DNA of 64,000 nucleotides from an uncultured Bacteroidales bacterium (lineage in GTDB: Bacteria > Bacteroidota > Bacteroidia > Bacteroidales > F082). Below the pieces are notes generated by a model, which was not told the DNA's origin, ran no database searches, and saw only the letters and a list, made by a program, of their open reading frames with translations. The translations under genes were made by a program, and so were the position numbers. The DNA lies in NCBI GenBank assembly GCA_905234645.1, contig CAJOIS010000001.1:1-64000 (forward strand), written 5' to 3'. This document shows, piece after piece, positions 1,257-64,000 of this stretch; position 1 is the first letter of the stretch, and each line of letters starts with the position of its first letter.

Positions 1257-1258
1257 TA

Positions 1259-2281: not shown

Positions 2282-2300
2282 GGGTCTCATTTTGGAGGGT

Positions 2301-2308
2301 CAAAATTA
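2301..2308 (-). promoter_or_regulatory. -7 promoter box for tsaD
   Basis: The minus strand reads TAATTTTG, matching the Bacteroidetes -7 consensus TAnnTTTG, about 20 nt upstream of the tsaD ATG at 2281. No clean -33 TTTG was identified. Confidence 0.5.
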
Positions 2309-2346
2309 TTAAAAAAAAGATTATCCATAGCATCCTAATCGTTATT

Positions 2347-6792: not shown

Positions 6793-6797
6793 TTGTT

Positions 6798-19362: not shown

Positions 19363-19369
19363 TAGTGTA

Positions 19370-42668: not shown

Positions 42669-42706
42669 ACTCTAAATTTAATCTCTAAACTCTAAACTCT
42701 AAACTA
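42669..42706. repeat. Short tandem CTCTAAA repeats
   Basis: Four to five imperfect units of CTCTAAA fill the gap between the two nucleoside hydrolase paralogs. Confidence 0.7.
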
Positions 42707-44068
42707 ATGTTGGATGGCCATAAGGCGGATGTACTTGAGCACCATGTCGCACCATACGGCATCGCCAGGATACTGGTAGCGGGCATTACCCTTCGGGTCG
42801 GCTTTGAAGATCGTCTCGCCATTCGGGGTGAGGGTGACCCAGCCGCGTTCGGAGAGCTTGTAGAAGCCGTCGCCTTCCACGGCATGGATGACCGCCTGCG
42901 GGTCCCACATCTTCTGGCCTGTGTCGCAGTTGAGGAACTGATAGATCCACTTGATGGGATGCGTGTCGGTCCAGTTCATGTCGGCGATGACGGTCTCGGG
43001 ACGGTAGTCGAGAGGGTCGCCCACCTCACCGGGAGAGAAGACGATGTCGACTTCTTTGGGCAGCAGCTCGAAGAATTTCAGAGAAAAGTCGATGGCAGCC
43101 TTGAAGTTGTAGTCAGGCTCGACGGCTTCGCCGAACACGCCACCCATGGCATAGATGTCCTTGACTTTGGCTCTAACCAATTCCACACCATTGAGGGGCG
43201 AGAATTCGTCAGGTCCGGATTCCAGCAGGCGTGCCAGTGAGGTCACGAAGCCAATGGAGGCGATGGTGACGGAATGGTCGGGCTGCTCGCTGAGGAGCTT
43301 ACGATAGAGTTTGTAGCCTTCCATATAGGTGCCGTTGTCGCCAACGCTGCGCTTGAACATCGGCTCGGCCTCGGTGGTGCGGGCATAGGGTGCGTTGTGG
43401 TAGGTGATAAACACATGCGGCGTTTCAACACCTTTCGTCTCCAAGCCAATGGGGATGTCGGGGTAGCCGTAGAAGTTGTTCATCATGTCCACCAAGTCGG
43501 CATTGGCTTTACCCATGCGGTCGACGACAACGCCAATCAGGTTGCAGCGTTTCATATCCATGTAACGGTAGAGCATCATCAAGGCAAACAGGTCGTCGGT
43601 GGAACTGCCCATGTCGCAGTCCAAGATGACGCGGATGTCCTTTTGCTCGTAGTTCGTCCAAATGTTGATGTCTTTAGAGGCCACATAGACGGTGTGCTGG
43701 TCGTTGTCGCGAGCGAATTGCACTGCGGCGGCGAGACTGTCCTCGGGAAAAGACCTGTTACTGTCAAAGTAATACTTGTCTTCTTCGGGATTGTACCAGC
43801 CACCCACGAGGTTGTTGTGGGCACGGGCGTGCTTGATAACAGCAGGGATACTCTTGCGGTCGAAACTGTTTTGCGTTGCCTTGTAGGAAACGATCAGGCC
43901 CTCTGTGGGTTGACGCATGGTGTTGAGGTCAAGGGTGAAGCCATCCGGATACATCTGTCCCATGGCATAGATGACGTTGACCAACTCATTGTCTGTCAGC
44001 TTCTCTTGGGAGAAGCAGAAAGGTGTCAAAAAGAAGAACAACAATAAGAGAATGTTTGTTTTTTTCAT
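42704..44068 (-). CDS. Nucleoside hydrolase-like secreted protein, copy 2
   Basis: 454 residues, closely related to the 41280-42665 gene over the whole length, including the N-terminal GFTLDLNTMRQPTEGL domain and the same DCDMGSSTDDLFALMMLYRY signature. Signal peptide MKKTNILLLLFFFLTPFCFSQ. The C-terminal KYIRLMAIQH nearly equals copy 1 (KYIRLMTIQH). A tandem duplication followed by divergence is the simplest reading. Both copies carry the same Gly-Ser-Ser change, so it predates the duplication. Confidence 0.85.
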   Translation of the reverse strand: MKKTNILLLLFFFLTPFCFSQEKLTDNELVNVIYAMGQMYPDGFTLDLNTMRQPTEGLIVSYKATQNSFDRKSIPAVIKHARAHNNLVGGWYNPEEDKYYFDSNRSFPEDSLAAAVQFARDNDQHTVYVASKDINIWTNYEQKDIRVILDCDMGSSTDDLFALMMLYRYMDMKRCNLIGVVVDRMGKANADLVDMMNNFYGYPDIPIGLETKGVETPHVFITYHNAPYARTTEAEPMFKRSVGDNGTYMEGYKLYRKLLSEQPDHSVTIASIGFVTSLARLLESGPDEFSPLNGVELVRAKVKDIYAMGGVFGEAVEPDYNFKAAIDFSLKFFELLPKEVDIVFSPGEVGDPLDYRPETVIADMNWTDTHPIKWIYQFLNCDTGQKMWDPQAVIHAVEGDGFYKLSERGWVTLTPNGETIFKADPKGNARYQYPGDAVWCDMVLKYIRLMAIQH

Positions 44069-44105
44069 GATGATTAAGAATTTGATTGATTTAACATTTT
44101 ATGCG

Positions 44106-45524
44106 TCATTCGGCGTGCTTATAGCCTTGCACCTTGTTCCAGTCACCGCGTGTGAAGTCGGGCATTTGGACAGGCATGCCGCCATTGGCGATGGAGGCAG
44201 CGGTCAGCTCGCCGAGGCAGGACCATTCTGCGGCGTCGTAGACGTCTTGGTCGAGCGGCAAACCGTGTTGCAGGCAATAGATGAGGCGGTAGTCCATGAC
44301 GAAGTCCATGCCGCCGTGGCCGCCCACTTCCTTGGCTTTCTCTTCAATCTCTACGGCGATGGGGTGGAGGTAATCCTTCAGGATCTTGTCGCGCACCTCG
44401 GCAGGCACAAAGCCGTGGGGGTTAAGGTGTTGTCCCTCGGCAAGGAAACCGGCGGGCAGCTTGTCTTCCATCACCGTGAAGCCTTCGATGGGGTATTTGT
44501 TGGCGAAGCCTTCGGTGCCCGTGAGCTGATAGAGACGGTTGTAGGGTCGGGGTGTGTAGACGTCGTGCTCGATGAGCAGGGTCTTGCCCTTCTCGGTCTG
44601 GATCATCGTGGTGGTCATGTCGCCGTTGGCGAAGTCTTCGGTGCCCATCATCTCCTTGGCGATCTTCTTGCCGTTGTAGGAGGGCGTGCTCATGCACACC
44701 AGGGTCTTCATGCGGTCGCCGCGGTGGATGTTGAAGGCCTGGCAGAGGGGCCCGAGGCCGTGGGTGGGATAGACGTCACCGGCGTGGCTTTGGTTGAACT
44801 CAAGGCGCCAATTTTCATAGTATTCGTGCCAATAAGGTTCGAGGTTGTGGATGTAGGCACCTTCGCCATGGACGAGTTCGCCGAACATGCCTTGTTGGGC
44901 CATGTTGAGCGCCGTCAGCTCGAAGAAGTCGTAGCAGCAGTTCTCAAGCATCATGCAGTGGCGTTGCGTCTGTTCGGCCACGTCGACGAGCTTCCAGCAG
45001 TCTTCGATGGAGGTGGCAGCCGGCACTTCAATGGCCACGTGTTTGCCACATTGCATGGCATAGACCGCCATCGGGACGTGCGTCTGCCAGTTGGTGCAGA
45101 TGTAGACGAGGTCGATGTCGTCGCGCTCGCAGAGCTCGCGCCAGGCTTCACGACCCGTGTAGGCAGCGGCACGAGGAAGGCCTCTGGCCTCCAGGATGTT
45201 GGTTTGTACGGCTTCGACGCGGTCGGGCTCGATGTCGCACAAGGCCACGACGGTCACACCGTCGATGTAGGTGATGCGGTCGACAGCGTCATAGCCGCGC
45301 ATGCCAAGGCCGATGTATCCGATGCGGACGTTCTCGATGGGATCGACGGTGAATTGAAGGACACTCTTCTGTCCTTCGATGCGTTGCGGCTCGTCGAAGA
45401 CGATGGCGTTGTCAACGATGCGGTAGTTGTCCTTGCGGACTTCAGTTTCCTGCTTCTCGCAGCAGCCCGTAAAGAAGGCCATCATAATCAGGCTGATGAT
45501 GAGATGTAGAGCTTTGTTTTTCAT
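44106..45524 (-). CDS. GH109-like (Gfo/Idh/MocA fold) glycosidase, lipoprotein
   Basis: 472 residues. Lipoprotein signal MKNKALHLIISLIMMAFFTGCC. Rossmann NAD site VRIGYIGLGMRGYDAV, ALCDIEP, YICTNWQTHVPMAVYAMQCGKHVAIEVP, then the EN.CYDFFEL.ALNM, PTHGLGP and GGHGGMDFVM motifs that mark GH109 enzymes. GH109 hydrolyses alpha-N-acetylgalactosaminides by an NAD-dependent mechanism. The longer frame to 45584 adds codons from a palindromic repeat and was not used. It is divergent from a hexosamine-kinase-like gene. Confidence 0.88.
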   Translation of the reverse strand: MKNKALHLIISLIMMAFFTGCCEKQETEVRKDNYRIVDNAIVFDEPQRIEGQKSVLQFTVDPIENVRIGYIGLGMRGYDAVDRITYIDGVTVVALCDIEPDRVEAVQTNILEARGLPRAAAYTGREAWRELCERDDIDLVYICTNWQTHVPMAVYAMQCGKHVAIEVPAATSIEDCWKLVDVAEQTQRHCMMLENCCYDFFELTALNMAQQGMFGELVHGEGAYIHNLEPYWHEYYENWRLEFNQSHAGDVYPTHGLGPLCQAFNIHRGDRMKTLVCMSTPSYNGKKIAKEMMGTEDFANGDMTTTMIQTEKGKTLLIEHDVYTPRPYNRLYQLTGTEGFANKYPIEGFTVMEDKLPAGFLAEGQHLNPHGFVPAEVRDKILKDYLHPIAVEIEEKAKEVGGHGGMDFVMDYRLIYCLQHGLPLDQDVYDAAEWSCLGELTAASIANGGMPVQMPDFTRGDWNKVQGYKHAE

Positions 45525-45541
45525 ATTGTGCTTTTTGTTTT

Positions 45542-45642
45542 GCGTCATTGCGAGGAGGAACGACGAAGCAAATCGAAGATTCAACGTAGTTAATCTAGGG
45601 ATGAAGTTTTCTTATCTGGATTGCTTCGTTCCTCGCAATGAC
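45542..45642. repeat. GTCATTGCGAGGAGGAACGA palindromic element in a 5' leader
   Basis: Left arm 45542-45574 (GCGTCATTGCGAGGAGGAAC, ACGACGAAGCAAATC); right arm 45618-45642 (GGATTGCTTCGTTCCTCGCA, ATGAC). It lies between the -7 box at 45654-45661 and the GH109-like start, so it would be transcribed as a leader hairpin. Same family as 37979-38071. Confidence 0.8.
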
Positions 45643-50513: not shown

Positions 50514-53500
50514 ATGAATAAAGTTTTACGCAGTAACTTGGAGAACAAAACTTCAGTTTTAAAGGTTGACAATGGTGGCAGAAAGCAGGGGAGAGGCGTG
50601 CTCGGCTTCTTCATGATGGCTTTCTTGGCCCTTTTCCTGAACGGAAATGCTTGGGCACAGACTACAATCACCAGTTTGAGCACGATTGCCGATGATCTAA
50701 GCGGCAATTATATTATCACTGCCGATATTGATGCCTCAGGTTTTACCTCTAGCATTGCCTCTTTTTCTGGTACCTTGACGGCCCAGGCTTTCACATCGGG
50801 TGATCATAAAGGAGAGTTTCCTGTTATCTCGAATCTAAGTTGTCCTATTTTCACCACGGTTAGTGGAAGCGCTCATATCAGCAACATCATGCTGAAGAAT
50901 GTGTCTGTCACCGGAAGCGGTAGCGTGGGTGCTATCGCAGGCACCGCCAGCGGCACCTCCCGTATCTACAACTGCGGCATCCTGCCGGACGCCATCTCGT
51001 ATGATGCGAACGGAGTGATTAGTACGGGTAGCACGGTGTCCAGCTCCGATGGTTACTGCGGCAGCCTTGTGGGCAAGCTTGAAGGTAACGCCAGGGTCAT
51101 CAATTGCTTCAGCTATGCCGTTATCACGGGAGGAACTACGGTTGCTGGCTTGGTAGGTTACATTATCGGTTCGGGCAACCAGCAAACTACGGGAATCACA
51201 CAGAGTACTGTGGGAACACTTCCTGTGGTGGTCAACTGCATGTTCTATGGCGACATTACCGGTGGAACGAGTGCAACGACGAGATACCCCGTGTATGGCG
51301 GAGCGATGATTAAGAATGATGCGACGAATGGCGTCAATCCCTATAATTATTTCCGAAAGAACGCTAAATTTGATAACGATTATAGTCCCAGCGATATTGA
51401 ACGATATAACCGCTCATGGCCTGCCGAGGAGAAGAACCTGGTGCGCTTCGAGTATTACCGCAGTGTCCTCAACAGCAACCGTAAGCTCTGTACCTATTGG
51501 GTCACAGACAAACAATATGGTTCGACAACGAATGCACCTACTGCAGACGATGAAGCGTTGATCGCCAAGTGGGTGCTCGATCCGAGCATCGCCCCCTATC
51601 CTATCCTGAAAAAATGGGGTAAGTATCCTTCCATCATCAACCCTGACAAGGAGAAAGTGTGGAATTCCCGTACCAACAGTTGGGTGCAACGTGACAATGC
51701 CAACGAATGGGAAGGAAAGAGTTGGGGCACAATCACCGTAAACATCAACGGTGGGGAGAAAAATTCCTCTGCCTCTGATTCGAAGGTTCTCCCCATCACC
51801 GATATGGACACCTTGAACTATGACTACTGCGCCTACAAGGTGCAGTTGCCCTACTACAATGAAATCTTCGGCAATCCCAATGGAGCCACCCATGCTGAAA
51901 AGTACGCCAACAACTATACGGATTATGTGGTGACGGGTTGGATGATTGATGCGGTTTCGTCGGAAGGAACAACTCATTTTGTGGCCAACTGGCAGACGGG
52001 CTATAACTTTGCCGACCGCAAATGCACCGATAAGGACCTGTATCTTACCAGTGGCCGAATATTCGCCCAAGGCGGCTATTACTATGTACCGGAAGGCGTT
52101 ACAAGCATCACCATCACCGCCAAATGGGGCAAGGCCATCTATTTGGCCAACCGTGGCCATAGTATTGATCAAGTGAATGTTACTAGATCAAATAGTTTTA
52201 AGTCAGGTAGTCATTTCGCTCCTGCTGGTTCGGTAGCGACCACTTTCCAAGGCCAAGACGTTTACAATGACCTTCAAGCGGCTATAAAAGCATTGGATGT
52301 AGCCACCGTCTCCAATAATGTTCCGAGTCTCACGGTTTTCGACCAAGCCATTGTGTTGATCAGCAATCATCAGGTGAAGAATGGCGGTACCAAAAATCAG
52401 GGTACTCAGAGTATTGGCTATCAGAGCGTAGGTTATAATTTGGACAATAAGTGGCATCCTTTCACCATTATGAGTGCTGACTTCGACTTTGACAACGAAC
52501 CAGACTATTGCTTGGAACTCCAATTCAGGGAAAACACAGATCGTCCTGGCATCCAGCCGGTTCGCTTTGATTTTTTGCCCGTTGTGGAACTGGGTCTTGC
52601 CGTGCGTCATAACAATTTGGCCTACGCCATTGGTATCTTCGTCCCGCAAGGGTATTTTGAAATTACCGAGACTTCTTTCATGCGTACTACCCAGTTTGAG
52701 TATGATGCGGACCTTAATAAAATTGAGACCCAATCTCCTGTAATTATTAATGGAGGCGAACATGAACTGTTCAATATAAGGTATACGGTTAATACTATTC
52801 ATAATAGAACCAGTTATTTCCTTTTGGGTGGTCATGCTTGGATCCACCGTTTTGCTCCAGGCCCGCACCCCAACAATGGTAATGCAGCTGTTGCTAAAGT
52901 GTGTTTGTGCGCCGTCAATGCCATAGGCGGTGAGTATCCTGAGTTCTACCTGTCGGGCATCAACCGTCCGGACTATACTCCGCCTACCCTTCAAAAGCCC
53001 CACTGCTATACCAACGGAGGAAAGTTTGGCATGATGGCGGGTGCAGGCTACGAAAAAGTCGAAGGCGATGTCACTTTCAGAATTAACCGCTCGCTGATTG
53101 ACGAGTTCTACGGAGGAGGCATTAACGCTTCCAAACCTGTTGGTGGTGATATTGATATCGTCGTTGACAACAGTAAGGTGAGGAAGTTTTGTGGTGGTCC
53201 TCGTGTGGGCTCTATGGCAAGCGGCAAGAAAGTCACCACGAGTGCCACGGGAACCATTTTCGGTACCTTCTATGGGGGTGGCAATGGCGGCAACAGCTAT
53301 TTCAGACAGAACCAAGACGATGGTGACTGGAATGCCCAAAGTACTACAGAGGGTATTGATCAATGGAATCATAGAAAATACAATTGGGGAAAATTCAATC
53401 CCTTGAATCACTTCACTGAAGGAACAACAACCCCAGTAGTTTTTGATGATGGCACCGGCGGCACTAACAACACTGATAACAAAGGCTACCACTGTGAATA

Positions 53501-54203
53501 TGAGTGCGAGGTGTTCAACCAATCCAATGGTTTGGCTGACCAGGTAACAAAGCGTGGCTATATCCATTGGATTCAGTTTGGCACCACCATCACAGGTAAT
53601 GTCACCAATACGCTTAGCGGCTGCACCGTCGAGCACAACTTCTATGGTGGAGGCAATTTGGGTAATGTGACGGGTACTGTTACCTCAACGCTGACCGACT
53701 GCACCGTGAAAGGCAGCGTTTTTGGTGGCGGTTATTCAGCTACAGTTCCTACTTTCAATGCTGAAGACAAGGCGGCATCCACTTTCCCATCCATGGATGC
53801 TGCCGGTACGATTACCGAGGGCACCATCCCTTATATGACAGATGAAAATGGGGTGATTTCCTATGAATGGACCAATGATTTGAATGGCGAGACCTTAGCT
53901 AACAGGAAAAAGCATCCCACTTATAAGATTGGTGACAAGTGGTATTGCTATACATGGAAATCGCTTTCCGGACTCGGTGTCGTGACCAGCGATGTCGACT
54001 TGACCATCAAGGGCAGTAGCCGCATCGATGGCAACGTCTTTGGTGGCGGCGATATGAGTGAGGTAGAGGGCAAGACCACCGTCCAGCTGCAGGGTGGCAC
54101 CCATGTGGGTGGCAACGTGTATGGCGGCGGCAACGAAGGCAAAGTCCATGGCGACGCGAAGGTGTTCATCCAGGACGAATCAAATGCAACTTCGGAACCC
54201 TGA
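50514..54203 (+). CDS. Large exported GG-repeat protein, gene A
   Basis: 1,229 residues. A long signal peptide: about 28 polar/basic residues (MNKVLRSNLENKTSVLKVDN then GGRKQGRG), then the core FFMMAFLALFLNGNAWAQ. The N-terminal part (50-260) is GLUG-like beta-helix sequence (GSVGAIAGTASGTSRIYNCG, GSLVGKLEGNARVINCFSY). The middle (about 260-830) is unassigned and includes Tyr/Trp-rich stretches and a DNEPDYCLELQF block. The last third has at least seven [VIL/F][YFC]GG units: EFYGGGINASKPVGGDIDI, KFCGGPRVGSM, TFYGGGNGGNS, VFGGGYSATV, VFGGGDMSEV, VYGGGNEGKV. It ends DESNATSEP without a recognised anchor. First of three consecutive related genes; 66 bp to the next. Confidence 0.85.
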   Translation: MNKVLRSNLENKTSVLKVDNGGRKQGRGVLGFFMMAFLALFLNGNAWAQTTITSLSTIADDLSGNYIITADIDASGFTSSIASFSGTLTAQAFTSGDHKGEFPVISNLSCPIFTTVSGSAHISNIMLKNVSVTGSGSVGAIAGTASGTSRIYNCGILPDAISYDANGVISTGSTVSSSDGYCGSLVGKLEGNARVINCFSYAVITGGTTVAGLVGYIIGSGNQQTTGITQSTVGTLPVVVNCMFYGDITGGTSATTRYPVYGGAMIKNDATNGVNPYNYFRKNAKFDNDYSPSDIERYNRSWPAEEKNLVRFEYYRSVLNSNRKLCTYWVTDKQYGSTTNAPTADDEALIAKWVLDPSIAPYPILKKWGKYPSIINPDKEKVWNSRTNSWVQRDNANEWEGKSWGTITVNINGGEKNSSASDSKVLPITDMDTLNYDYCAYKVQLPYYNEIFGNPNGATHAEKYANNYTDYVVTGWMIDAVSSEGTTHFVANWQTGYNFADRKCTDKDLYLTSGRIFAQGGYYYVPEGVTSITITAKWGKAIYLANRGHSIDQVNVTRSNSFKSGSHFAPAGSVATTFQGQDVYNDLQAAIKALDVATVSNNVPSLTVFDQAIVLISNHQVKNGGTKNQGTQSIGYQSVGYNLDNKWHPFTIMSADFDFDNEPDYCLELQFRENTDRPGIQPVRFDFLPVVELGLAVRHNNLAYAIGIFVPQGYFEITETSFMRTTQFEYDADLNKIETQSPVIINGGEHELFNIRYTVNTIHNRTSYFLLGGHAWIHRFAPGPHPNNGNAAVAKVCLCAVNAIGGEYPEFYLSGINRPDYTPPTLQKPHCYTNGGKFGMMAGAGYEKVEGDVTFRINRSLIDEFYGGGINASKPVGGDIDIVVDNSKVRKFCGGPRVGSMASGKKVTTSATGTIFGTFYGGGNGGNSYFRQNQDDGDWNAQSTTEGIDQWNHRKYNWGKFNPLNHFTEGTTTPVVFDDGTGGTNNTDNKGYHCEYECEVFNQSNGLADQVTKRGYIHWIQFGTTITGNVTNTLSGCTVEHNFYGGGNLGNVTGTVTSTLTDCTVKGSVFGGGYSATVPTFNAEDKAASTFPSMDAAGTITEGTIPYMTDENGVISYEWTNDLNGETLANRKKHPTYKIGDKWYCYTWKSLSGLGVVTSDVDLTIKGSSRIDGNVFGGGDMSEVEGKTTVQLQGGTHVGGNVYGGGNEGKVHGDAKVFIQDESNATSEP

Positions 54204-54269
54204 TAAAGACCACGATAGAGAAAGGCAAGAACAGACACCTTATTAATATATATAGAAGCATATTGACGA

Positions 54270-56549
54270 ATGACAACAAACAACAAACGATCCATGAATA
54301 AGAGATTCGGAAATATCATACCCAAAGTCCTTTTGGCCGCCTTGCTGCTCTCCGGCGGTGCAGCGATGGCACAGCGTAACGAAGCGCCACATGTCTCCGT
54401 GAGCGGCAATGTGTTCGGAGGCGGCAAAAAAGCCAACGTGGGGGGCAACAGCTCTGTGGTGATTGACCAGAGCGACGCCATCATTGGAACCGATGTGTAT
54501 GGCGGCGGCGAAGAGGCCAAGGTGAATACCCTCGATGGTACCACCTATACTGATGGCAAGTCTGCCAGCGTCCTCGTCCATTCGGGTACGGTTCGTGGCA
54601 ATGTCTTTGGCGGAGGCCGCGGCACTACAGGCGTCGCTGCCGACGTGCTTGGCCCTGCGACGGTCACCATCGAAGGTGGAACGGTCATTGCAGGTGTCTA
54701 TGGAGCCAACAACATCAACGGCAATGTAGGTGGCGATGTCGTCGTGGATATCACTGCAGGCACCATCGGGTCTTCCGAAAATCTGGGTCAGACTACACCT
54801 GTGGTTGCCATGGTGTGTGGCGGCGGCTATGGTCAGCTTACCACCACTTCGGGTGATGTTGAGGTCAATATTGGAAACACCTCATCGGGTCCCACCCTCT
54901 ATGCCGACGTCTATGGCGGCTCGGCTTTGGGTAACGTCAATACTCCCAATGGCAACAATAAAACTACCGTCAATATCATGAATGGTACCCTGAACACAAA
55001 CAGGAAAGATGGACAGAATTACCTGGGAGCCCTTTGCTATATCTATCATGGCGGCAATGTTTTTGGCGGCGGACTGGGACAGAAAGCCAGTGCTGCAGTA
55101 GGTAATCCGGGTGATCCAGGCTATGTCCCCGCTCAAGAAGCCATCGAATCCAAGGTTTACGGCGATGTGACCGTCAATATCGGCACGGGAGATGTGGGAC
55201 TGCCAATGGAGATCGAATTAACCGGCTCATTAGCCGGCATAACATTGCACCCGGCATTTACTTTGACAACGCAAGGCTTTGCTACCATCAAAGGCAACAT
55301 CTATGGCTGCAACAACCAAAACGGTGCCCCACAGAAAAGTGTTACCGTGAACGTCTTTAAAACGGCGCACACCCCGAAAGACGAATATGATTACGTTTAT
55401 GCATATTTAGATGACCAAACGGGAAATACTAATCCTGACGCCACCTTCGCCCTCGCCAATGTGTTCGGCGGTAGCAAACAGGCTGACTTCCTCACAGGTG
55501 TAATACCTTATGTGAACATTTATGGCTGCGACAATACCATCGAGCGTACCTTTGGCGGCTGTGATGCAGCGGCATCCAATACTGTGCAAACCATGATTCA
55601 AGGAGGGTGTGTTCGTCAAGCATACGCTGGTGGTAACGGCGAAATCAGCCCGGCCGACGTTAATGGTTCAGTCACCCTTGAAATCCACGGAGGAAAGGCT
55701 GGTAGTACGTTTGGGGGTAGTAACTTGCAAGGAAACATTTCTATTCAACCCTCAATAATGTACACAGGTTCAGAAGGCGGCTGTGGCGCTACCCACGTCA
55801 ACGAGTACTTCGGCGGAGGCAATTTCGCCGACTATCATGGTGATATCGACGCCACCGTCTATTGTGCTGACGGATTGTTCATCGACGATTTGTATGGCGG
55901 CTGCAAACAGGCGGATGTCTTGCCCAGCGGTGAACACATTGGCAATGTGCATTTGGTGGTGGAAGGCGGTACCTACAACAATATCTTCGGCGGCTCACAA
56001 GGAAGACTTCCAGGGACAAACGGAACAGACGACCCGGGGAAATCCGCTGACATTAATGGTTGCATCCTCCTTGAGATTCACGGTGGAAAGGTCAACAATG
56101 CCATCTATGGCGGTAGCCATATCTTGGGCAAAGTTAAGGGTACCATCACCGTCAATATCGAGAACATGGACGGAAGTTGTCCTCTCGATGTGTCGACGGC
56201 CGATGTGTATGGCGGCGGCAACGAGGCCGACTATGACACCGCACCTACTCAAGGTGAGCATGGATACAATTATACCCATCCCAATTATCCTGTGATTAAT
56301 ATCAAGAACGCCACCGTGAGGAATGTGTATGGCGGTGGCTATAAGGCCAATGTCATGGGCAACCCGCAGATTAACCTCAAGCAGGGTGCCAAGGTGCTTG
56401 GCAACGTGTATGGCGGCGGCAACATGGGTGAAGTAAAAGATAGTCCTAATACTACTACAATAGTTGAAGGCAATCCGAAGGTGAACATCGACGGCAAGGA
56501 CACTAGCGAAAACCCGCACGAGATCCCAGAGCATCCGCAGAATGAATGA
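54270..56549 (+). CDS. Large exported GG-repeat protein, gene B
   Basis: 759 residues (751 if ATG 54294 is used). Signal peptide NIIPKVLLAALLLSGGAAMAQ. Almost the whole mature protein consists of about 19 units of roughly 38 residues, each with [VIL][YF]GG[GCS] plus N/K.A.V and then a strand pattern like (V/T)V.I.GGT. One long cassette (54812-55320) with GGGYGQ, GGSALGNVN, GGGLGQ and GCNNQNG also occurs in gene C. It ends NPHEIPEHPQNE with no sorting signal. The regular alternation of Gly-rich turns and short strands suggests a solenoid such as a right-handed beta-helix (inference). Gene C starts 15 bp downstream. Confidence 0.85.
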   Translation: MTTNNKRSMNKRFGNIIPKVLLAALLLSGGAAMAQRNEAPHVSVSGNVFGGGKKANVGGNSSVVIDQSDAIIGTDVYGGGEEAKVNTLDGTTYTDGKSASVLVHSGTVRGNVFGGGRGTTGVAADVLGPATVTIEGGTVIAGVYGANNINGNVGGDVVVDITAGTIGSSENLGQTTPVVAMVCGGGYGQLTTTSGDVEVNIGNTSSGPTLYADVYGGSALGNVNTPNGNNKTTVNIMNGTLNTNRKDGQNYLGALCYIYHGGNVFGGGLGQKASAAVGNPGDPGYVPAQEAIESKVYGDVTVNIGTGDVGLPMEIELTGSLAGITLHPAFTLTTQGFATIKGNIYGCNNQNGAPQKSVTVNVFKTAHTPKDEYDYVYAYLDDQTGNTNPDATFALANVFGGSKQADFLTGVIPYVNIYGCDNTIERTFGGCDAAASNTVQTMIQGGCVRQAYAGGNGEISPADVNGSVTLEIHGGKAGSTFGGSNLQGNISIQPSIMYTGSEGGCGATHVNEYFGGGNFADYHGDIDATVYCADGLFIDDLYGGCKQADVLPSGEHIGNVHLVVEGGTYNNIFGGSQGRLPGTNGTDDPGKSADINGCILLEIHGGKVNNAIYGGSHILGKVKGTITVNIENMDGSCPLDVSTADVYGGGNEADYDTAPTQGEHGYNYTHPNYPVINIKNATVRNVYGGGYKANVMGNPQINLKQGAKVLGNVYGGGNMGEVKDSPNTTTIVEGNPKVNIDGKDTSENPHEIPEHPQNE
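54812..55320 (+). repeat. GG-repeat higher-order cassette, copy 1 (gene B)
   Basis: Order seen: CGGGYGQLT, GDVEVNIG, VYGGSALGNVN, TTVNIMNGTL, VFGGGLGQ, VYGDVTVNIG, IYGCNNQNG. The same order recurs at 61060-61440, 62958-63290 and 63671-64000. Confidence 0.7.
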
Positions 56550-56564
56550 TAATGGTTGAACTAC

Positions 56565-59500
56565 ATGAAGAAACAGTTGAATATACCCAATAGTGAATTG
56601 AAAATGAGAAGGAACAACATAAATATGAGAACATTGTTACAACGCTTGGCAATATGTTGTCTTTTACTGTGGTGTTTCATGGGAAGCACGATGGCACAGA
56701 CCGACAAACCGTATGTGCTGAAGAGGCAGATAGGGGAGACGCACCATTATCTGACTCACGTCAACAACGGAGGGACCTGGTCACTTCAGGATGCCACTGA
56801 ATTCAATCCTGAGACCTGCCTCTGGTATTCCGGCCCCGTGTTTAACGTCTCCGGTACCCACCACAACTATTATTTCTATGACCAAACTGCCGACAAGTAC
56901 CATTTCCTCTCGGCACCCTTGGCAGGCAACCAGGACTTGGGCTTTTCCGCTGAACTGCCCACCACTTCCCATCTGAAAAACCCTGAAGAGATCTACTACT
57001 TCTACGACTGGGACCAGGATGAGTATGGTGGCGGTGTGGCCCGTGGTCACGACGACAACGGCTGGTGGACGGTGCACTGGGTGTCCTATAGCAATCATTA
57101 CCATAAATGGTTGACATCAGAGGATCATTATAATGTTGTGGATAGTGCTGCGAGGTATCGTGAAGTGACCATTACCGAGCATGACAAGTATTTCAACTGG
57201 ACCCAAAACAATATTGGCAATTTGGAGGAGCCTTTTGCGATGAACTGGCATGAAACCCCATCATCGAACGGACACGCACTCTCGATTACCATTGGCAATT
57301 ATTCCTATACTTGCACTCCCGCTTACACTACCTATAATTTCGAGGGTAGTAGCTACAACTTCCAAGGCAATACGCCTTATACGCCCACTCCAAGTAGTCC
57401 CATTCAGGGTAGTGGTTCGGCGGCGTCCTACACTTGGACGATTTTGGGCGAAGGCAATGATTACCTTTCGTTCAGCTCTGAGCCCAATAGTAATGACACG
57501 GTCACCACAGGTGCTACTCCGACCCTTTACTATACCAGAGAGAACACGCAAGGCCGCAAGACGGCTACCTTGACGCTCACCATGACCTTCGGTTCGGGAG
57601 ACAACATCGCCACGGTGGTGCGCACGACTACTGTCACGGTGAACACGCTCTGCCAAAACCCGGCACAGGCCGCGAACCCTGTGGTCAACCACAACGACGT
57701 CACCGTGACATGGTATCCCACCGCCTCACATTATAAGGTGGAATGGAAGAAAGCCTCGGAAAGCGACTGGACTCATGCCAGTTATGCTGAGGTCGGCGAT
57801 GTTACTTCCTATACCATCCACGACTTGGACCAAGTCTTATACCAATATAGGGTGATTGCAAAGTGCGGTGATGACTATCAGACTCCTCCGACGAATCCTA
57901 CAGGCTCGTTTACACCCCAGGCGGCTCCCGATCTGCTGATCTACGGCTCCGTCTTTGGCGGTGGCCGTGCTGCCGACGTGACGGGCAAGGTCGAGGTGAT
58001 CATCGTCAACTGCGACAGCATCGGTGCCGTGTATGGCGGCAACGACATCGCCGGTACGGCCGGTGGTGCTGACGGCGCAATCATCACCTTGGGTGTTAAT
58101 GGCTCGGGTACCGCTCCCCATACCCAGGCTCCCATCAGGATTGGCTCGGTGTATGGCGGCGGCAACGGCTACTATGCCTACGGCAGCCAAGCCTTTGCGC
58201 CTGCCACGGCAACTACCAATACTGTCGCTGCGGGTGCCAGTGTGTATGCCATGTCACTCTCCAACCAATGGGATAACTTAGTATGGACCAACTCGGGCAC
58301 AACGGCTGTCTCGAAACCCTCCATCTCCAAGACTTCCATCACGGTGACCAACGACTATGTGAAGATTGACTCGCTCTTCGGCGGCGCCAAGAATGCTTTT
58401 GTGACCCAAAACAAAGCCAACGATGATGACGTGACCACGACCAACACGAAGACCACCATCAACGGCGGTACCATCTTTGCCGTGTTTGGCGGCAACAACG
58501 TGGGCGGTACCTTGGGAACAGCCCGACAGAAAATCGATGTCACCGCGACGACGGAAGACCGTGACCCCGTCACGGGTACGATAAAATTGGGCCGTACCCA
58601 CGGCATCGGCTACCTCTTCGGTGGCGGCAACATGGTGGCGGGTACGACCACCGAGGTCAACATCACGGGCGGCCAGCTGGACACCATCTTCGGCGGCGGC
58701 AACCGTGAAAGCGTTGTCGCAGCTTGGCTGACGGTCAATTGCGCTGGTGACAAGAAAATCTCCAGTGCGTTGGATGGCAGCGGCAATATCCTTTCCACAT
58801 ACGGTTGGGATGGCGATGCCCTCTATAACGTACACACCCTCTTTGGTGGCAACAACCGCGCTCACATGGACGGCGTGCCTCACATCACCCTGACTTCGGG
58901 CGGCGTGGGCACAGCTTACGGCGGTGGCAATGCCGGCGACATGTTGGCACACATCCATGAACAGATTGAGGAGAATGGCCCTTATGTGGATTACGGCACG
59001 CACATGGTGCTGTCAGAAGACAATATGATTGTCGATTTCCTCTATGGCGGCTGCCAGATGAGTAATGTGGAATACAGCACTTGGGTGGAAATCCAAGGTG
59101 GACACGTGGGTTCTGTGTATGGCGGCTGCAACGTCAGCGGCGATGTGGGCAGCATACGTACAGATCCTGAAGCAACAGCATTCACTGGCGAGGAACCAAA
59201 TCAAGAACCCAATGAAAACTATCAAAAGGTTAAAGGTGCCACCTATGTCAAGGTGACGGGCGGCACCATCTATAGGGATGTCTTCGCGGGCAGTAATGGC
59301 TACTACCACTGTAACGACGGTGTCTACTATGTAGAAGGCTTGAAATTTGGCGATCAAGACGGATCTCCGGAGTATTACGACCCGAACAATCTCTATGTCG
59401 GTCTTCGTGTCCCCACCCACAACGAGACCAATGTGAAGATTTGTGGCGGTACCATCAAAGGCAACGTCTATGCGGGCGGCAACTTGGCTTGCGTGGGCTT

Positions 59501-62500
59501 CACCGACTATACCGTTCCTGAAGAGTTTACTTCTGGCGACAAATTGTATCCCACCTTCGTCGGCTTGACCTTGGTGGAAATGTCGGGTGGCCATGTCGAG
59601 GGCGATGTGTATGGCGGCGGTAGAATGGCTTCCGTCTTCGGCAGCAACTCGGTGAAGGTGTCGGGCGGCACCATCGACGGTGCCCTCTATGGCGGCAACG
59701 ACCGTACCGGCCAGGTGGCCCAGATTACCAACCGCGTCTTGTCTGATGATTATAAATGGGCATCCGATAACATCACCAATTTGAACCAACTCAACGTCAA
59801 GACCTATGTCTGTGTCATGGGTGCTCCTCAAGTCGGCACGGTGTATGGCGGCGGTAATGGCGACTACGACTATACGAGTGAGGATGCCATTCAGTTCTGC
59901 GGCATCACCCCCGACGAGCCCATCCAATCCAACACCTTTGTCGATATCAACATTGATGGCAGTGCCAACGGCCACACTGCCGGTCACATCGGCACGGTGT
60001 ATGGCGGCGGTAACGGCGTCACCGTCATCAACGGCATTACCGTTTTCCTCAATGTCCAAAATGTGGATTACGAGCATGACGGCGACCATGTGGGGACCAT
60101 TTTTGGCGGCAACAACAAAGGTTCGCTGACCCTGGTTCCTGACATCATCCTGAAGGATGGCAAGGTTCACACCGTGTATGGCGGCTGCAACAAAGGCGCC
60201 ATGTATGGCGACTATACATTCAAAACTGGAAGTGGAAACAGCGAACATACTTATCCCAACGTAGGCAGTTTGGTGCGCCTGCGTGATCAATATGTGTTTA
60301 CTCTCAAAGGAGGACAATATAATGCTCAAAATGAGTGGATTGCTAACAATACCGATTATACCCAACCGGTCCATGCCCAAGTGACGGGCGCAGTGTATGG
60401 TGGCTGCCGCATGAACGGCGTGACCACCAACAGTATGGTGCTCGTTGAAGGTCACGGCAACGACCACGTCAATGCGGAACTCTTCGGTGGCAGCGATATC
60501 AGCGGCGTCGTGGGCGGCACCTCCATGGTGGTGATCAACGGTGTCAACACTACCAGTGGTGACTTAATCGCCACGCAGGTAGGTAATGTGTATGGCGGTG
60601 GCAACGGCCACTATGTATATGAAAACAACAATGTATATGTGTTGAACGACGACGGCACGACCGGCGATTTGATCGACCAGGGTACGGCACTGAATCCCAT
60701 TCAGGCCCCTTATTGCAAAGAGACGCTTGTCGAGATGATCAATGGCAACTCGGATCATAACCTCTTCGCGGGCGGTTATGCTGCTCTGTCGGGTAAGACC
60801 ACGATGAATGTCTACGGCGGCACGGTGAACGAAAAGATCTTCGGCGGCGGCAACTTGGCCGGCACGACGAAGGCCAGCTATACGTTCGAAGGCAACTCAT
60901 ATTCTGGCGATGGTACCAGCACCGTCAATGTGACGGGCGGCATGGTGAAAGGCGGCGTCTATGGTGGAAACAACCTCCAAGGCACCATCGCTGACGACAT
61001 CACTGTCAACATCTTGGGCGGCACCTTCGGAACTAGCACCGTTCCGATGACCGATGGCATCTTCGGCGGCGGCTACGGTAACCAAACGCGTACCACCGGC
61101 GACGTCACGGTCAACGTTGACAAAGTGAGTGGTGGCGTGGCTCCTGTCATCTACGGCGACGTGTATGGCGGCTCGGGCTATGGCGATGTGAATACGGAAG
61201 ACGGTAACGACATCACCATGGTCAACATCCTTGACGGTACCATCCACGGTGACATTTACGGCGGTGGTCTGGGACAAAACCAGATTGGTGATGACCCCAC
61301 CACAGCTTATCCTGCCAAAGTCAACGGCAAGGTCTATGTCAATATCGGTAGCGGCGAACTGAATCAAGGCTGCGTCGAGAATCTCACCGGCAACGCCACC
61401 ATCGGTGGCGCGGTGTACGGCTGCAACAACATCAACGGCACGCCGCTCGACGATGTGTTCGTGAATATCTATTCCACTCACCATGAGGGCAACAATGTCT
61501 ATCCCACCAATCCACCGACTACTGTGGTGGGTTTGTCAGCATTGCCACACACTGATGATTATTTTGCCCTTAGCGCGGTCTATGGTGGCGGCAACCGTGC
61601 AGCCTATCTGCCTCCGTTGAACGGAGAAAACCGCAGGTGCGCCACGGTGCATGTGTGGGGTTGCCACGAGAATACCATTAAGGACGTTTACGGTGGCGGC
61701 AACGCTGCCGACGTGGGTAGCACCGGCACCAATGGCGTTGCGGCCAACACGCACGTGATTATCGACGGCGGCCGCATCTACCGCTCGTTTGGCGGTGGTA
61801 ACGGCTACAGCGCCATAGGCAACCACAATGATCCTTCTGGACAGGATTATAACCCCGGTGCCAACATCTACGGCAAGGCCTCTTCACACATCTATTCTGG
61901 CCTGATCGAAGAGGTGTATGGCGGCGCCAACCAGTATGGTTCCATCGATGACATCGACCTCAACGTCTTGTCGTCCAGCTGCTGTCAGGACAAAGCGGTT
62001 TACTGCAAGGTGTTCGGCTGCGCCAATGAGGCCCCCATCAACCACGACATCGTCACGACCATCGGTTGCGGTGTGGGTGAGATTGGCGAACTTTACGGCG
62101 GCTCCAACTTGGCTCCCATTGGCGTCAATGACCCGAACCATAAGGCCAACGTCACGCTCAACCTCTATGGCGGCGAATATGAGAGAGTGTTCGGCGGCTC
62201 GAAAGGCCGTCTCGAGGGCGGCGGGTTATCAGCTGTTTCGGCTGACATCTATGGCGACGTCACACTCAACCTCTATGGCGGTACGGTCCACGATGCCTTT
62301 GGCGGTTCCGACCAATTGGGCAGCATCAAGGGTATCATCACCGTCAATGTGCTTGACGATGAAGGAAGTTGCAAACTTGACCTCACCAACGTGTACGGCG
62401 GTAGCAATCTGGCTGATTACGACCCCTGGACGGTCAATGGTGCAGTAGTGGAAAGCCCCATTGTCAACGTGATGCATATCAATAATGTGGATGTAGTAGG

Positions 62501-64000
62501 GGAGCAGCAAGTCATGCAGGGCATCCGTGGCAATGTGTTTGGTGGCGGCTATCAGGCTACCGTGACCTCCAAACCGGTGGTCAACATCGGCTATGATGCC
62601 GAAACGGTTGTCTATGGCACCACCACTATGGCTCAACTCAAACCCGAAGGCTATCCTGAGGAAAGCACGCTCACCAACTTCCCGCTGGCTTACATCACGG
62701 GCGACGTGTTCGGCGGCGGCGATGAAGCTAATGTGTCGGGCAAGGCCACAGTGAACATGCGTCAGGCCCAAAGCCGTGTGACCAAGATTTTCGGCGGCGG
62801 CAACGAAGCCGGCGTCGGTGCCACTGAGGTCAATGTCTATAATGGCAAGGTGGCTACCGCTGTGTATGGCGGCTGCAACACCAAAGGCAATGTGACTAAC
62901 GACGTCGCCGTGAACGTCTATGGCGGCACCTTGGGCACGACGACCAACCCCATCAGCATCTTCGGTGGCGGTTATGGTGGCCCTGTCCCTGCCGACAACA
63001 ATCCTGGCACCACCACTGGTGGCAACGTCATCGTCACCATCGGTGGTACGGGCTATACACCTACCATTTATGGTCCTGTCTATGGCGGCTCGGCCTTGGG
63101 TAGCGTGAACGCTGCAGGCAAATTTACCAAGGTTGAACTCAAGAGCGGTACCGTCAATGGTAATGTGTTTGGCGGTGGTTTGGGTAATAACACCACTGCA
63201 GCCATTGTGAACGGCGACATCCAAGTGGTCGGCAATGGCGGCAACGTCAACGGTTTGGTCTTCGGCGCCAACGACCAGAATGGCGACCCCGCAGGCAAGG
63301 TGGAAGTCGTCATCAACGGTGGCACCATCACTGGCGATGTGTTCGGCGGCGGCAACGTGGCCGCCTACAGTTCGCCTATAGTTAATAACAATTACACCAA
63401 TTATCCCTATGTCAACATCACGGGCGGCACGGTGACCCATAAGGTGGTGGGCGGCGGTAACAACGCCAATGTCGTGGGCAACCCGTTTATCCTTATCGAA
63501 GGTGGCACCATAGGCATCAACGATGCATCCGATGCCGGCATTTACGGCGGCTGCAACACCTGGGGCACCGTTACCGGCAATACGATTGTTACGCTTACGG
63601 GTGGCAGCATCGGCGAAGAGGTAAACACTGGTACCCTTGAGGACCCTGAGTATGTAGTTCACCACGCATACATCCACGGCGGCGGTTATGGTAAGGATAC
63701 CTATGTCACTGGCAACGTTACCGTCAGTTTCGGCGCTGTTGAGATTAATGAAAGTACGGGCGAAGAAGTGCATACGGACGACCTTGTCCTCTATGGCGAA
63801 CTTTATGGTGGATCGGCTCTTGGGAATGTCAACACCAATATCGAAAACAACTCCGACCTTAAGACTATCGTCAACCTGATGAACGGCATCATCATAGGTG
63901 AAGTTTACGGTGGCGGCTTGGGACGCTTGGACGACCAGAGTACTACTGATGAAAACGAAGCCGTTGCAGCTACTGTATTTGGCGAGGTTCACGTCAATGT
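56565..64000 (+). CDS. Giant exported GG-repeat protein, gene C, 3' partial
   Basis: Open from ATG 56565 to the right edge, over 2,470 codons; the frame was checked at several points and at the end. A signal peptide core LAICCLLLWCFMGSTMAQ follows an N-region of about 28 residues (a later ATG, 56604 or 56625, would shorten it). The N-terminal domain (50-270: YVLKRQIGETHHYLTHVNNG, NYYFYDQTADKYHFLSAPLA) is unassigned. Next is an Ig-like stretch with WTILGEGNDYLSFSS and an FN3 domain (about 365-460: VNHNDVTVTWYP, YKVEWKKASESDW). From about residue 462 the protein is all GG units: 52 were counted by eye in about 2,010 residues (mean about 39). Gene C is the largest of the trio; any C-terminal anchor lies outside the window. 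Confidence 0.85.
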   Translation, partial: MKKQLNIPNSELKMRRNNINMRTLLQRLAICCLLLWCFMGSTMAQTDKPYVLKRQIGETHHYLTHVNNGGTWSLQDATEFNPETCLWYSGPVFNVSGTHHNYYFYDQTADKYHFLSAPLAGNQDLGFSAELPTTSHLKNPEEIYYFYDWDQDEYGGGVARGHDDNGWWTVHWVSYSNHYHKWLTSEDHYNVVDSAARYREVTITEHDKYFNWTQNNIGNLEEPFAMNWHETPSSNGHALSITIGNYSYTCTPAYTTYNFEGSSYNFQGNTPYTPTPSSPIQGSGSAASYTWTILGEGNDYLSFSSEPNSNDTVTTGATPTLYYTRENTQGRKTATLTLTMTFGSGDNIATVVRTTTVTVNTLCQNPAQAANPVVNHNDVTVTWYPTASHYKVEWKKASESDWTHASYAEVGDVTSYTIHDLDQVLYQYRVIAKCGDDYQTPPTNPTGSFTPQAAPDLLIYGSVFGGGRAADVTGKVEVIIVNCDSIGAVYGGNDIAGTAGGADGAIITLGVNGSGTAPHTQAPIRIGSVYGGGNGYYAYGSQAFAPATATTNTVAAGASVYAMSLSNQWDNLVWTNSGTTAVSKPSISKTSITVTNDYVKIDSLFGGAKNAFVTQNKANDDDVTTTNTKTTINGGTIFAVFGGNNVGGTLGTARQKIDVTATTEDRDPVTGTIKLGRTHGIGYLFGGGNMVAGTTTEVNITGGQLDTIFGGGNRESVVAAWLTVNCAGDKKISSALDGSGNILSTYGWDGDALYNVHTLFGGNNRAHMDGVPHITLTSGGVGTAYGGGNAGDMLAHIHEQIEENGPYVDYGTHMVLSEDNMIVDFLYGGCQMSNVEYSTWVEIQGGHVGSVYGGCNVSGDVGSIRTDPEATAFTGEEPNQEPNENYQKVKGATYVKVTGGTIYRDVFAGSNGYYHCNDGVYYVEGLKFGDQDGSPEYYDPNNLYVGLRVPTHNETNVKICGGTIKGNVYAGGNLACVGFTDYTVPEEFTSGDKLYPTFVGLTLVEMSGGHVEGDVYGGGRMASVFGSNSVKVSGGTIDGALYGGNDRTGQVAQITNRVLSDDYKWASDNITNLNQLNVKTYVCVMGAPQVGTVYGGGNGDYDYTSEDAIQFCGITPDEPIQSNTFVDINIDGSANGHTAGHIGTVYGGGNGVTVINGITVFLNVQNVDYEHDGDHVGTIFGGNNKGSLTLVPDIILKDGKVHTVYGGCNKGAMYGDYTFKTGSGNSEHTYPNVGSLVRLRDQYVFTLKGGQYNAQNEWIANNTDYTQPVHAQVTGAVYGGCRMNGVTTNSMVLVEGHGNDHVNAELFGGSDISGVVGGTSMVVINGVNTTSGDLIATQVGNVYGGGNGHYVYENNNVYVLNDDGTTGDLIDQGTALNPIQAPYCKETLVEMINGNSDHNLFAGGYAALSGKTTMNVYGGTVNEKIFGGGNLAGTTKASYTFEGNSYSGDGTSTVNVTGGMVKGGVYGGNNLQGTIADDITVNILGGTFGTSTVPMTDGIFGGGYGNQTRTTGDVTVNVDKVSGGVAPVIYGDVYGGSGYGDVNTEDGNDITMVNILDGTIHGDIYGGGLGQNQIGDDPTTAYPAKVNGKVYVNIGSGELNQGCVENLTGNATIGGAVYGCNNINGTPLDDVFVNIYSTHHEGNNVYPTNPPTTVVGLSALPHTDDYFALSAVYGGGNRAAYLPPLNGENRRCATVHVWGCHENTIKDVYGGGNAADVGSTGTNGVAANTHVIIDGGRIYRSFGGGNGYSAIGNHNDPSGQDYNPGANIYGKASSHIYSGLIEEVYGGANQYGSIDDIDLNVLSSSCCQDKAVYCKVFGCANEAPINHDIVTTIGCGVGEIGELYGGSNLAPIGVNDPNHKANVTLNLYGGEYERVFGGSKGRLEGGGLSAVSADIYGDVTLNLYGGTVHDAFGGSDQLGSIKGIITVNVLDDEGSCKLDLTNVYGGSNLADYDPWTVNGAVVESPIVNVMHINNVDVVGEQQVMQGIRGNVFGGGYQATVTSKPVVNIGYDAETVVYGTTTMAQLKPEGYPEESTLTNFPLAYITGDVFGGGDEANVSGKATVNMRQAQSRVTKIFGGGNEAGVGATEVNVYNGKVATAVYGGCNTKGNVTNDVAVNVYGGTLGTTTNPISIFGGGYGGPVPADNNPGTTTGGNVIVTIGGTGYTPTIYGPVYGGSALGSVNAAGKFTKVELKSGTVNGNVFGGGLGNNTTAAIVNGDIQVVGNGGNVNGLVFGANDQNGDPAGKVEVVINGGTITGDVFGGGNVAAYSSPIVNNNYTNYPYVNITGGTVTHKVVGGGNNANVVGNPFILIEGGTIGINDASDAGIYGGCNTWGTVTGNTIVTLTGGSIGEEVNTGTLEDPEYVVHHAYIHGGGYGKDTYVTGNVTVSFGAVEINESTGEEVHTDDLVLYGELYGGSALGNVNTNIENNSDLKTIVNLMNGIIIGEVYGGGLGRLDDQSTTDENEAVAATVFGEVHVN
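61060..61440 (+). repeat. GG-repeat higher-order cassette, copy 2 (gene C)
   Basis: IFGGGYGNQTRTTGDVTVNV, VYGGSGYGDVN, MVNILDGTIHGDIYGGGLGQ, VYVNIGSGEL, VYGCNNINGTP. Closest in order to copy 1 in gene B, including the GCNN.NG unit. Confidence 0.7.
62958..63290 (+). repeat. GG-repeat higher-order cassette, copy 3 (gene C)
   Basis: FGGGYGGPVPADN, GGNVIVTIG, VYGGSALGSVN, SGTVNGNVFGGGLGNNT, GDIQVVGNGG, VFGANDQNGDP. Confidence 0.7.
63671..64000 (+). repeat. GG-repeat higher-order cassette, copy 4 (gene C, cut by window end)
   Basis: IHGGGYGKDTYVTGNVTVSF, LYGGSALGNVN, TIVNLMNGIIIGEVYGGGLG, VFGEVHVNV, then the window ends. Confidence 0.7.

Follow-up and report, generated by a model that had tools for sequence, protein, structure and literature searches.

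The window analysed here, the first 64,000 nucleotides of contig CAJOIS010000001.1 from an uncultured Bacteroidales bacterium, ends in three consecutive genes (A, B and C) for very large proteins built of repeats with a glycine-glycine (GG) core. A fourth such gene, D, lies just beyond its edge. We propose that the products of A–D may be subunits of one modular, very long surface fibre made of coils of a GG β-solenoid. We hold this with slightly less than even confidence. It is the explanation that we rank first for testing, and its nearest rival, in which the conserved last coil of these proteins is only a folding cap, remains close.

Four giant genes and the sorting domain of the last

Gene A (50514..54203, forward strand, 1229 amino acids) has a signal-peptide-like N-terminus, an M26_N-like stretch and seven looser GG cores (defined below), and it ends in a conserved terminal coil. 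Gene B (54270..56549, forward strand, 759 amino acids) consists, after its signal-peptide-like N-terminus, solely of GG coils, the last of which carries a short insert. Neither A nor B has a match to a C-terminal sorting domain (CTD). Gene C starts with TTG at 56556 or ATG at 56565, and its open reading frame (ORF) runs past the window edge; the part inside the window (56556..63998, forward strand) encodes 2481 of its 3091 amino acids, namely N-terminal β domains followed by GG coils. Extending the contig, as the sequence-only reading had suggested, shows that C stops at 65831 and reveals the giant gene D (65852-89719, both in contig coordinates; 7955 amino acids), which starts 20 base pairs (bp) after C. 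The tandem forward-strand arrangement of A, B and C in that reading holds, as do its gaps of 66 and 15 bp, except that the second gap is 6 bp if C starts with TTG. The signal peptides that it assigned are also visible as signal-like stretches, judged by eye (ending in AWAQ and TMAQ in A and C, and in AMAQ in B). A–D are co-directional and probably form an operon. In the assembly of this genome (labelled G000; 2.59 Mb in 77 contigs, 83.7% complete), D alone occupies 23.9 kb, or nearly 1%, and A–D together occupy about 39 kb.

D appears to be a cargo protein of the type IX secretion system (T9SS). Its last 476 amino acids match TIGR04183 with 25.8 bits (cut-off 23). Scanned as a 2572-amino-acid piece, D scores 22.6 bits, just below this cut-off, and it does not pass PF18962 (14.0 versus a cut-off of 27). 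At its N-terminus there is a hydrophobic stretch that ends in GGIASAQ near residue 32 (by eye). The T9SS proteins SprA and PorU are over the cut-off in all 12 genomes tested, including G000, and in none of 14 control genomes. D resembles type A cargo (TIGR04183/PF18962) in what looks by eye like a Sec-type signal, in its CTD over the NCBIfam cut-off when the last 476 amino acids are scanned and in the PorU and SprA encoded by its genome, and its sequence supports a surface location. (As a side observation, G000 has two tandem PorU-like sortase genes at G000:C20:25714-32450, both over the cut-off, and such a pair is present in all 6 genomes of the window's genus among the 12 tested.)

A, B and C differ from type A cargo: scans against NCBIfam and Pfam found no sorting domain over the cut-off in any of them. 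The nearest signal was 14.7 bits for TIGR04183 (cut-off 23) in the last 200 amino acids of C. Similarly, no sorting domain over the cut-off was found in the C-termini of the 10 CTD-less GG proteins (of 47) that were scanned. Among giant ends, 7 of the 9 tested pass TIGR04183. Thirteen clusters can be followed as far as D on a single contig, and in every one the CTD is confined to the last GG gene. (These calls used our own model, built from five D-type ends, with a threshold of over 15 bits.) As to the suggested role in surface structures, a surface location is supported for D, by its type A CTD and by SprA and PorU in the genome, and not directly for A, B and C, in which no CTD over the cut-off was found. 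If the CTD-less members do reach the surface, then T9SS export must allow for partner proteins or for a further signal, and such flexibility bears on how Bacteroidota build surface structures.

The GG repeat and its predicted fold

We counted a strict core, [VIL][YF]GG[GCSN], and a looser one, [VILAMFT][YFC][GA][GA][GCSNAT]. The strict core is far more common than expected by chance: within the window there are 3, 12 and 39 copies in A, B and C (54 in total), versus means of 0.08, 0.10 and 0.31 after shuffling. The sequence-only reading had reported 78 units of this core as written (7, 19 and 52), which was too many. The whole proteins A, B, C and D contain 3, 12, 47 and 84 strict cores (shuffle means of at most 0.9) and 7, 17, 61 and 113 looser ones. 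The spacing of 38–39 residues proposed for B and C was near the means for looser cores (41.6 in B and 40.2 in C, with 55.2 in D). However, there is no constant period: the medians are 34, 34 and 49, the spacing ranges from 24 to 134 in B and from 8 to 108 in C, and we reject a fixed period of 38–39 residues. In D (residues ~44-6170) the coils show a higher-order alternation of sub-types. The "xG" (b) coils adjoin a or c coils in 70 pairs (shuffle mean 41, maximum 57 of 5000), and a bb pair occurs once versus 11 expected. The rules for these sub-types were written after inspecting D.

None of the libraries that we searched (Pfam, NCBIfam and PDB sequences) offers a family name for the repeat, in agreement with the earlier impression that it belongs to no named domain. 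Neither B nor the window part of C has a Pfam or NCBIfam match at E = 1. When 34 GG segments were scanned singly against Pfam, four families appeared at chance level, each in one or two members (best E = 0.054). A profile of the 34 segments had a single match among PDB sequences, an antibody chain (E = 0.24). Titin and antibody matches from the PDB sequence searches were weak (E = 0.24 to 0.6) and were rejected as the identity of the repeat. Among open-licence PubMed Central papers we found none that deals with repeats of this kind or with partners of T9SS cargo that lack a CTD, and such papers may exist elsewhere. The GG profile can be used to find and name these proteins. At E = 1e-10 it matches 9 of 393 genomes in a sample of the order (5 of 206 genera), and in a sample of 296 genomes of the phylum it matches G000 and none of the other 295.

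A structure model supports B as a β-solenoid with long loops. AlphaFold2, run on mature B with 34 related segments, gave a predicted local distance difference test (pLDDT) of 84 and a predicted template-modelling score (pTM) of 0.86. The model is almost all-β, with short strands, loops and a few short helical stretches; segments with pLDDT below 50 lie at both ends and in three internal stretches. Foldseek neighbours of B in the PDB are mostly known β-solenoids (IgA1 protease, Ag43, EspC, EspP, pertactin and a β-helical antifreeze protein), at weak similarity: the best E value is 7.8e-3, none reaches 0.001, and the query TM is about 0.1–0.2. The model supports the solenoid fold guessed from the sequence. 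A match to a characterised domain, or predicted disorder instead of a solenoid, would have spoken against that guess, and neither occurred.

Other domains accompany the coils. Residues 56-153 of A match PF05342 (Peptidase_M26_N; E = 3.1e-10). The N-terminal domains of C (56700..57971, forward strand; residues 49-472) are also found at 17 named Bacteroidales or Bacteroidetes loci (one partial), and Pfam detects fn3 (PF00041) in 15 of the 18 members of this set, the window's own copy not being among them. A model of these residues (pLDDT 83.5, pTM 0.60) resembles Ig and Fn3 proteins best (Foldseek best E = 2.7e-5, query TM about 0.2). By eye we had the impression of a β-trefoil head on C, which these matches, led by Ig/Fn3 proteins, did not confirm. 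A B-like supermodule of about 700 amino acids lies inside C (60582..62750, forward strand), and B-like modules recur in B, C and D. Finally, the end of C, beyond the window, has InlB-like B-repeats (Flg_new_2 and List_Bact_rpt in Pfam/NCBIfam). Fn3, InlB-like B-repeats and the M26_N match fit a role in adhesion, which the proteins may have.

Terminal coils, fused chains and the proposed fibre

Most CTD-less GG proteins stop right after a coil of a particular type. In 39 of 47 complete CTD-less proteins the last core lies within 50 residues of the C-terminus, in a coil with the approximate pattern [TAV]x[VI]xGN[VI]YGGGNxGxVxG[NDS]TKV[IV][IV]. In A this coil lies at 54081..54179 (forward strand); its E value of 8.5e-15 is the lowest that the coil model gives in the order sample, and A's own coil is one of the 23 rows of that model. 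When each genome was left out in turn, the terminal coil was the top-scoring coil of its own protein in 38 of the 39 (each protein has 4 to 81 coils), the sole exception being G388|7. A matrix built from the genus only ranks the terminal coil first in 9 of 10 proteins from three other families. The leave-one-out scores have a median of 35.4; the lowest are −10.4 (G388|7) and 15.7 (G208|2), and the other 37 are at least 25. For comparison, among 2823 internal coils scored with the matrix from all terminal coils, the 99th percentile is 21.2 and the highest score 35.2. The top internal scorer, like several others, directly precedes the extra repeats of a C protein. Such coils from 7 of 8 C proteins (G116, G094, G097, G012, G000, G101 and G024, and not G082) are among the 40 internal coils that score at least 20.

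Some sequences were left out of these tests: ORFs open at the 3' end, ORFs with fewer than 4 cores, and, by hand after looking, six GG ORFs without a CTD by the genus model. These were the broken genes G099|8, G097b|0 and G097b|3 and the giants with CTD-like ends G388|6, G307|4 and G208|1 (TIGR04183 is over the cut-off in G208, under it in G388 and absent in G307).

The other side of the putative joint is at N-termini. In B proteins, in 13 D proteins and in G116|5 and G069|4, a VxIxGxV[YF]GG stretch starts at most about 10 residues after the signal-like stretch. Therefore, the free C-termini stop after one coil strand and these N-termini start before the next. Such ends may complete each other.

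The same modules also occur in single chains. G034 encodes one chain with an A module, a B-like module and the D end with its CTD, and A and B modules are joined in G116, in G307 and at the second locus of G435. In all four chains the A coils continue into the B coils in register (by eye), and no coil of the full terminal type is kept at the junction. The junction coils reach at most 17.4 in G307 and 12.5 in G034, and they score −12.4 to −6.8 in G116 and −15.6 to −3.8 in G435, versus at least 25 for 37 of the 39 terminal coils. To say that the terminal coil is wholly absent from junctions would be too strong, as the coils of G307 and G034 are intermediate and each is the second best of its protein. 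Interacting parts would show this combination of shifting gene boundaries and constant order. Duplication alone could give the same pattern.

In the fibre that we propose, D would cross the outer membrane by the T9SS and be anchored there. A, B and C, with Sec-type signals only, would dock in the periplasm or at the surface via the exposed ends of their solenoids. Their docking partners could be each other or D, and they would travel or stay with D. The fibre would hold two heads outward, a β/Fn3 one from C and an M26_N-like one from A, and these heads may bind plant particles, mucus or other microbes. In a more specific version, a single solenoid is split over three to five genes, its pieces complete each other's end coils, and a single sorting domain, carried by the last subunit, serves to export or hold all of them. 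We regard this joint claim as possible and rather doubtful. The T9SS passages of PMC10994853 and PMC10202324 describe neither split-solenoid assembly nor export of partners.

Several observations count against a fibre of this kind. First, the structure models are of single chains, and contact between the proteins is inferred. Second, C begins with other domains, so there would be no coil-to-coil junction from A to C or from B to C. Third, 8 of the 47 CTD-less proteins, all of them C genes, have further sequence after the array and therefore no free terminal coil there. (This sequence is InlB-like by eye and, in G000, the one scanned with Pfam, by domain match.) Fourth, the score distributions overlap: with the matrix from all terminal coils, the best internal coil (35.2) exceeds the lowest terminal one (8.4). 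Also, the junction coil of G307, which ranks second in its protein, scores 17.4, more than the 15.7 of the terminal coil in the separate A of G208. Fifth, many of the terminal coils come from close relatives, and 34 of the 39 are left after merging those alike at 24 or more of 27 residues. Sixth, unfused A proteins (G000 and G101) have last coils that the B profile picks up as well, so that our identification of fusions rests also on length and on the number of coils. Seventh, in family f111 (G388, G307 and G208) the row is reversed, with the giant that has a CTD or CTD-like end first and the CTD-less members after it. Gene order need not equal assembly order. Finally, a cap that serves only in folding would yield the same conservation of the terminal coil.

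This last point leads to the closest rival, in which the terminal coil is a folding cap only, A, B and C are solenoids in their own right, periplasmic or vesicle-borne, D alone is at the surface, and the neighbours arose by duplication. Free solenoid ends commonly need caps. A, B and C have Sec-type signals and no T9SS domain over the cut-off, the recurrence of B-like modules in B, C and D is expected from duplication, and the 8 C proteins manage without a free terminal coil. On the other hand, the A-B module fusions, the fusion of A to the D end, and the order kept in 13 clusters argue for a joint function. Also, periplasmic giants with Fn3 and InlB-like repeats would be odd. We consider this explanation plausible and yet somewhat unlikely.

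Another possibility is that the terminal coil replaces the CTD as a C-terminal export signal for GG proteins, either of a further T9SS type or for another route. In 39 of the 47 CTD-less proteins the coil takes the place that a CTD would have, and in 38 of those 39 no other coil scores as high. Known T9SS signals are already of several kinds, with types A, B and C described in PMC10202324. However, the profile of 23 terminal coils matches 9 of the 393 order genomes, the identical nine that the GG profile matches, so the terminal coil is no general signal, and we reject a general sorting signal for this sample. Moreover, the terminal coil is a variant of an ordinary coil, unlike known CTDs, and in the 8 C proteins additional repeats come after the array. 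We think that an export signal specific to GG proteins is improbable. Whatever its role, the terminal coil is a short, removable element for testing the one-fibre proposal and its rivals. (A 79-codon open frame in another genome, G435:C2:216120-216215, also matches the coil model well, with E = 4.9e-13, and is perhaps the remnant of a gene.)

Relatives, fimbriae and other known systems

With C as the query, 26 of 99 genomes of the genus have a match at E = 0.001, and 15 of 99 have a match of at least 400 amino acids. The sequence-only reading had suggested a search for tandem A-B-C clusters in other genomes. In 13 of the 15 genomes with the long match, a single contig allows the cluster to be followed through to D (G000, G012, G018, G022, G024, G066, G069, G082, G094, G099, G101, G102 and G116), with the order kept. 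Of these, G022 begins at B at a contig start, and G012 and G018 are read from inside A. Of the other two, the G119 cluster is cut by a contig end and that of G097 is split over two contigs with a broken D. C of G099, in three ORFs, and D of G097 look broken. We considered whether the gene splits might be assembly errors and rejected this for the main ones, because each part has a signal-like start of its own and 13 clusters share the arrangement. The length of D ranges across clusters from 4452 to 7955 amino acids. Elsewhere in the genus there are single-gene forms that bear a CTD (for example in G034, G003, G103 and G076), and in the family of G388 (f111) 7 of 15 genomes match.

In G022 and G094 an unrelated ORF lies between GG genes. 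Similar-looking ORFs of about 510–550 amino acids lie between GG genes at G022:C60:9337-10983, G094:C71:50151-51695 and G435:C2:244002-245540. These may be of the ATP-binding PD-(D/E)XK kind that is common in Bacteroidales. G069 has a second GG cluster (G069:C2:186021-200075), which comprises a B-like array and two A-like genes; the 20 kb that was read showed no gene with a CTD.

A scan of named genomes gave 17 loci, with titles of Bacteroidales, Bacteroidia or Bacteroidetes, three of which name goat reticulum, goat omasum or yak abomasum as the source. Codes such as RUG and RGIG in the titles of relatives presumably denote rumen or ruminant-gut collections. These close relatives suggest a ruminant-gut habitat.

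The neighbours of GG genes raise a further explanation, that the giants serve type V fimbriae as tip or accessory proteins, like Mfa5 in Porphyromonas gingivalis, and that the window's genus keeps a derivative without fimbriae. In G205, fimbrillin-like genes come before the GG giant, and three of the four neighbours tested match Mfa_like_1; ahead of the giants of G388, G307 and G208 there are, by eye, other small exported genes. Fimbrillins are common in Bacteroidales, so this adjacency may be chance. In G388, none of the 4 neighbours tested matches a fimbrillin family, and beside the operon of the window's genus we recognised no fimbrillin by eye (Pfam was not run on all neighbours). According to PMC7835359, Mfa5 is encoded in the mfa1 fimbrial operon and carries a C-terminal signal domain of type IX. 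The likeness is to an adhesin-type protein with a CTD in a multi-gene locus for a surface structure. The differences are that Mfa5 has fimbrillin neighbours and a von Willebrand factor domain, and no such domain is in the Pfam output for A–D. We consider a role as fimbrial tip or accessory proteins very unlikely.

Other known systems resemble parts of the A–D set. SprB and RemA of Flavobacterium johnsoniae are also very large T9SS-exported surface adhesins (SprB is several hundred kDa, according to PMC10202324). Here, in contrast, the CTD is of type A, the repeat is another one, and several co-ordered genes are involved. The end of D has the type A model as its sole NCBIfam match at E = 1, and we found no type B CTD as in SprB. 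Autotransporter passengers (IgA1 protease, Ag43, EspP and pertactin) share a solenoid stalk and are among the best Foldseek neighbours of B, but the similarity is weak and they use another exporter; no autotransporter β-barrel family appears in the Pfam output for A–D at E = 1. The N-terminal region of the M26 IgA1-specific metallo-endopeptidase (PF05342) is like 98 residues of A. This match lies outside the GG repeat, and no peptidase domain was found in A.

The surroundings of the operon include other genes of note. On the 3' side of D is an acyl-CoA-synthetase-like gene (named by eye). Within the window, two tandem gingipain-like peptidases on the reverse strand (15982-22771; Peptidase_C25, a C25 propeptide and a PF18962 CTD over the cut-off) appear to be other T9SS-type cargo. 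A TamB-like gene followed by a UvrD-type helicase gene lies at 2347-10037 on the forward strand (PF04357, E = 1.8e-46, for the TamB-like gene). Finally, adjoining genes at 42704-45584 on the reverse strand encode a nucleoside-hydrolase-family protein and a GH109-type protein, with signal-like starts by eye.
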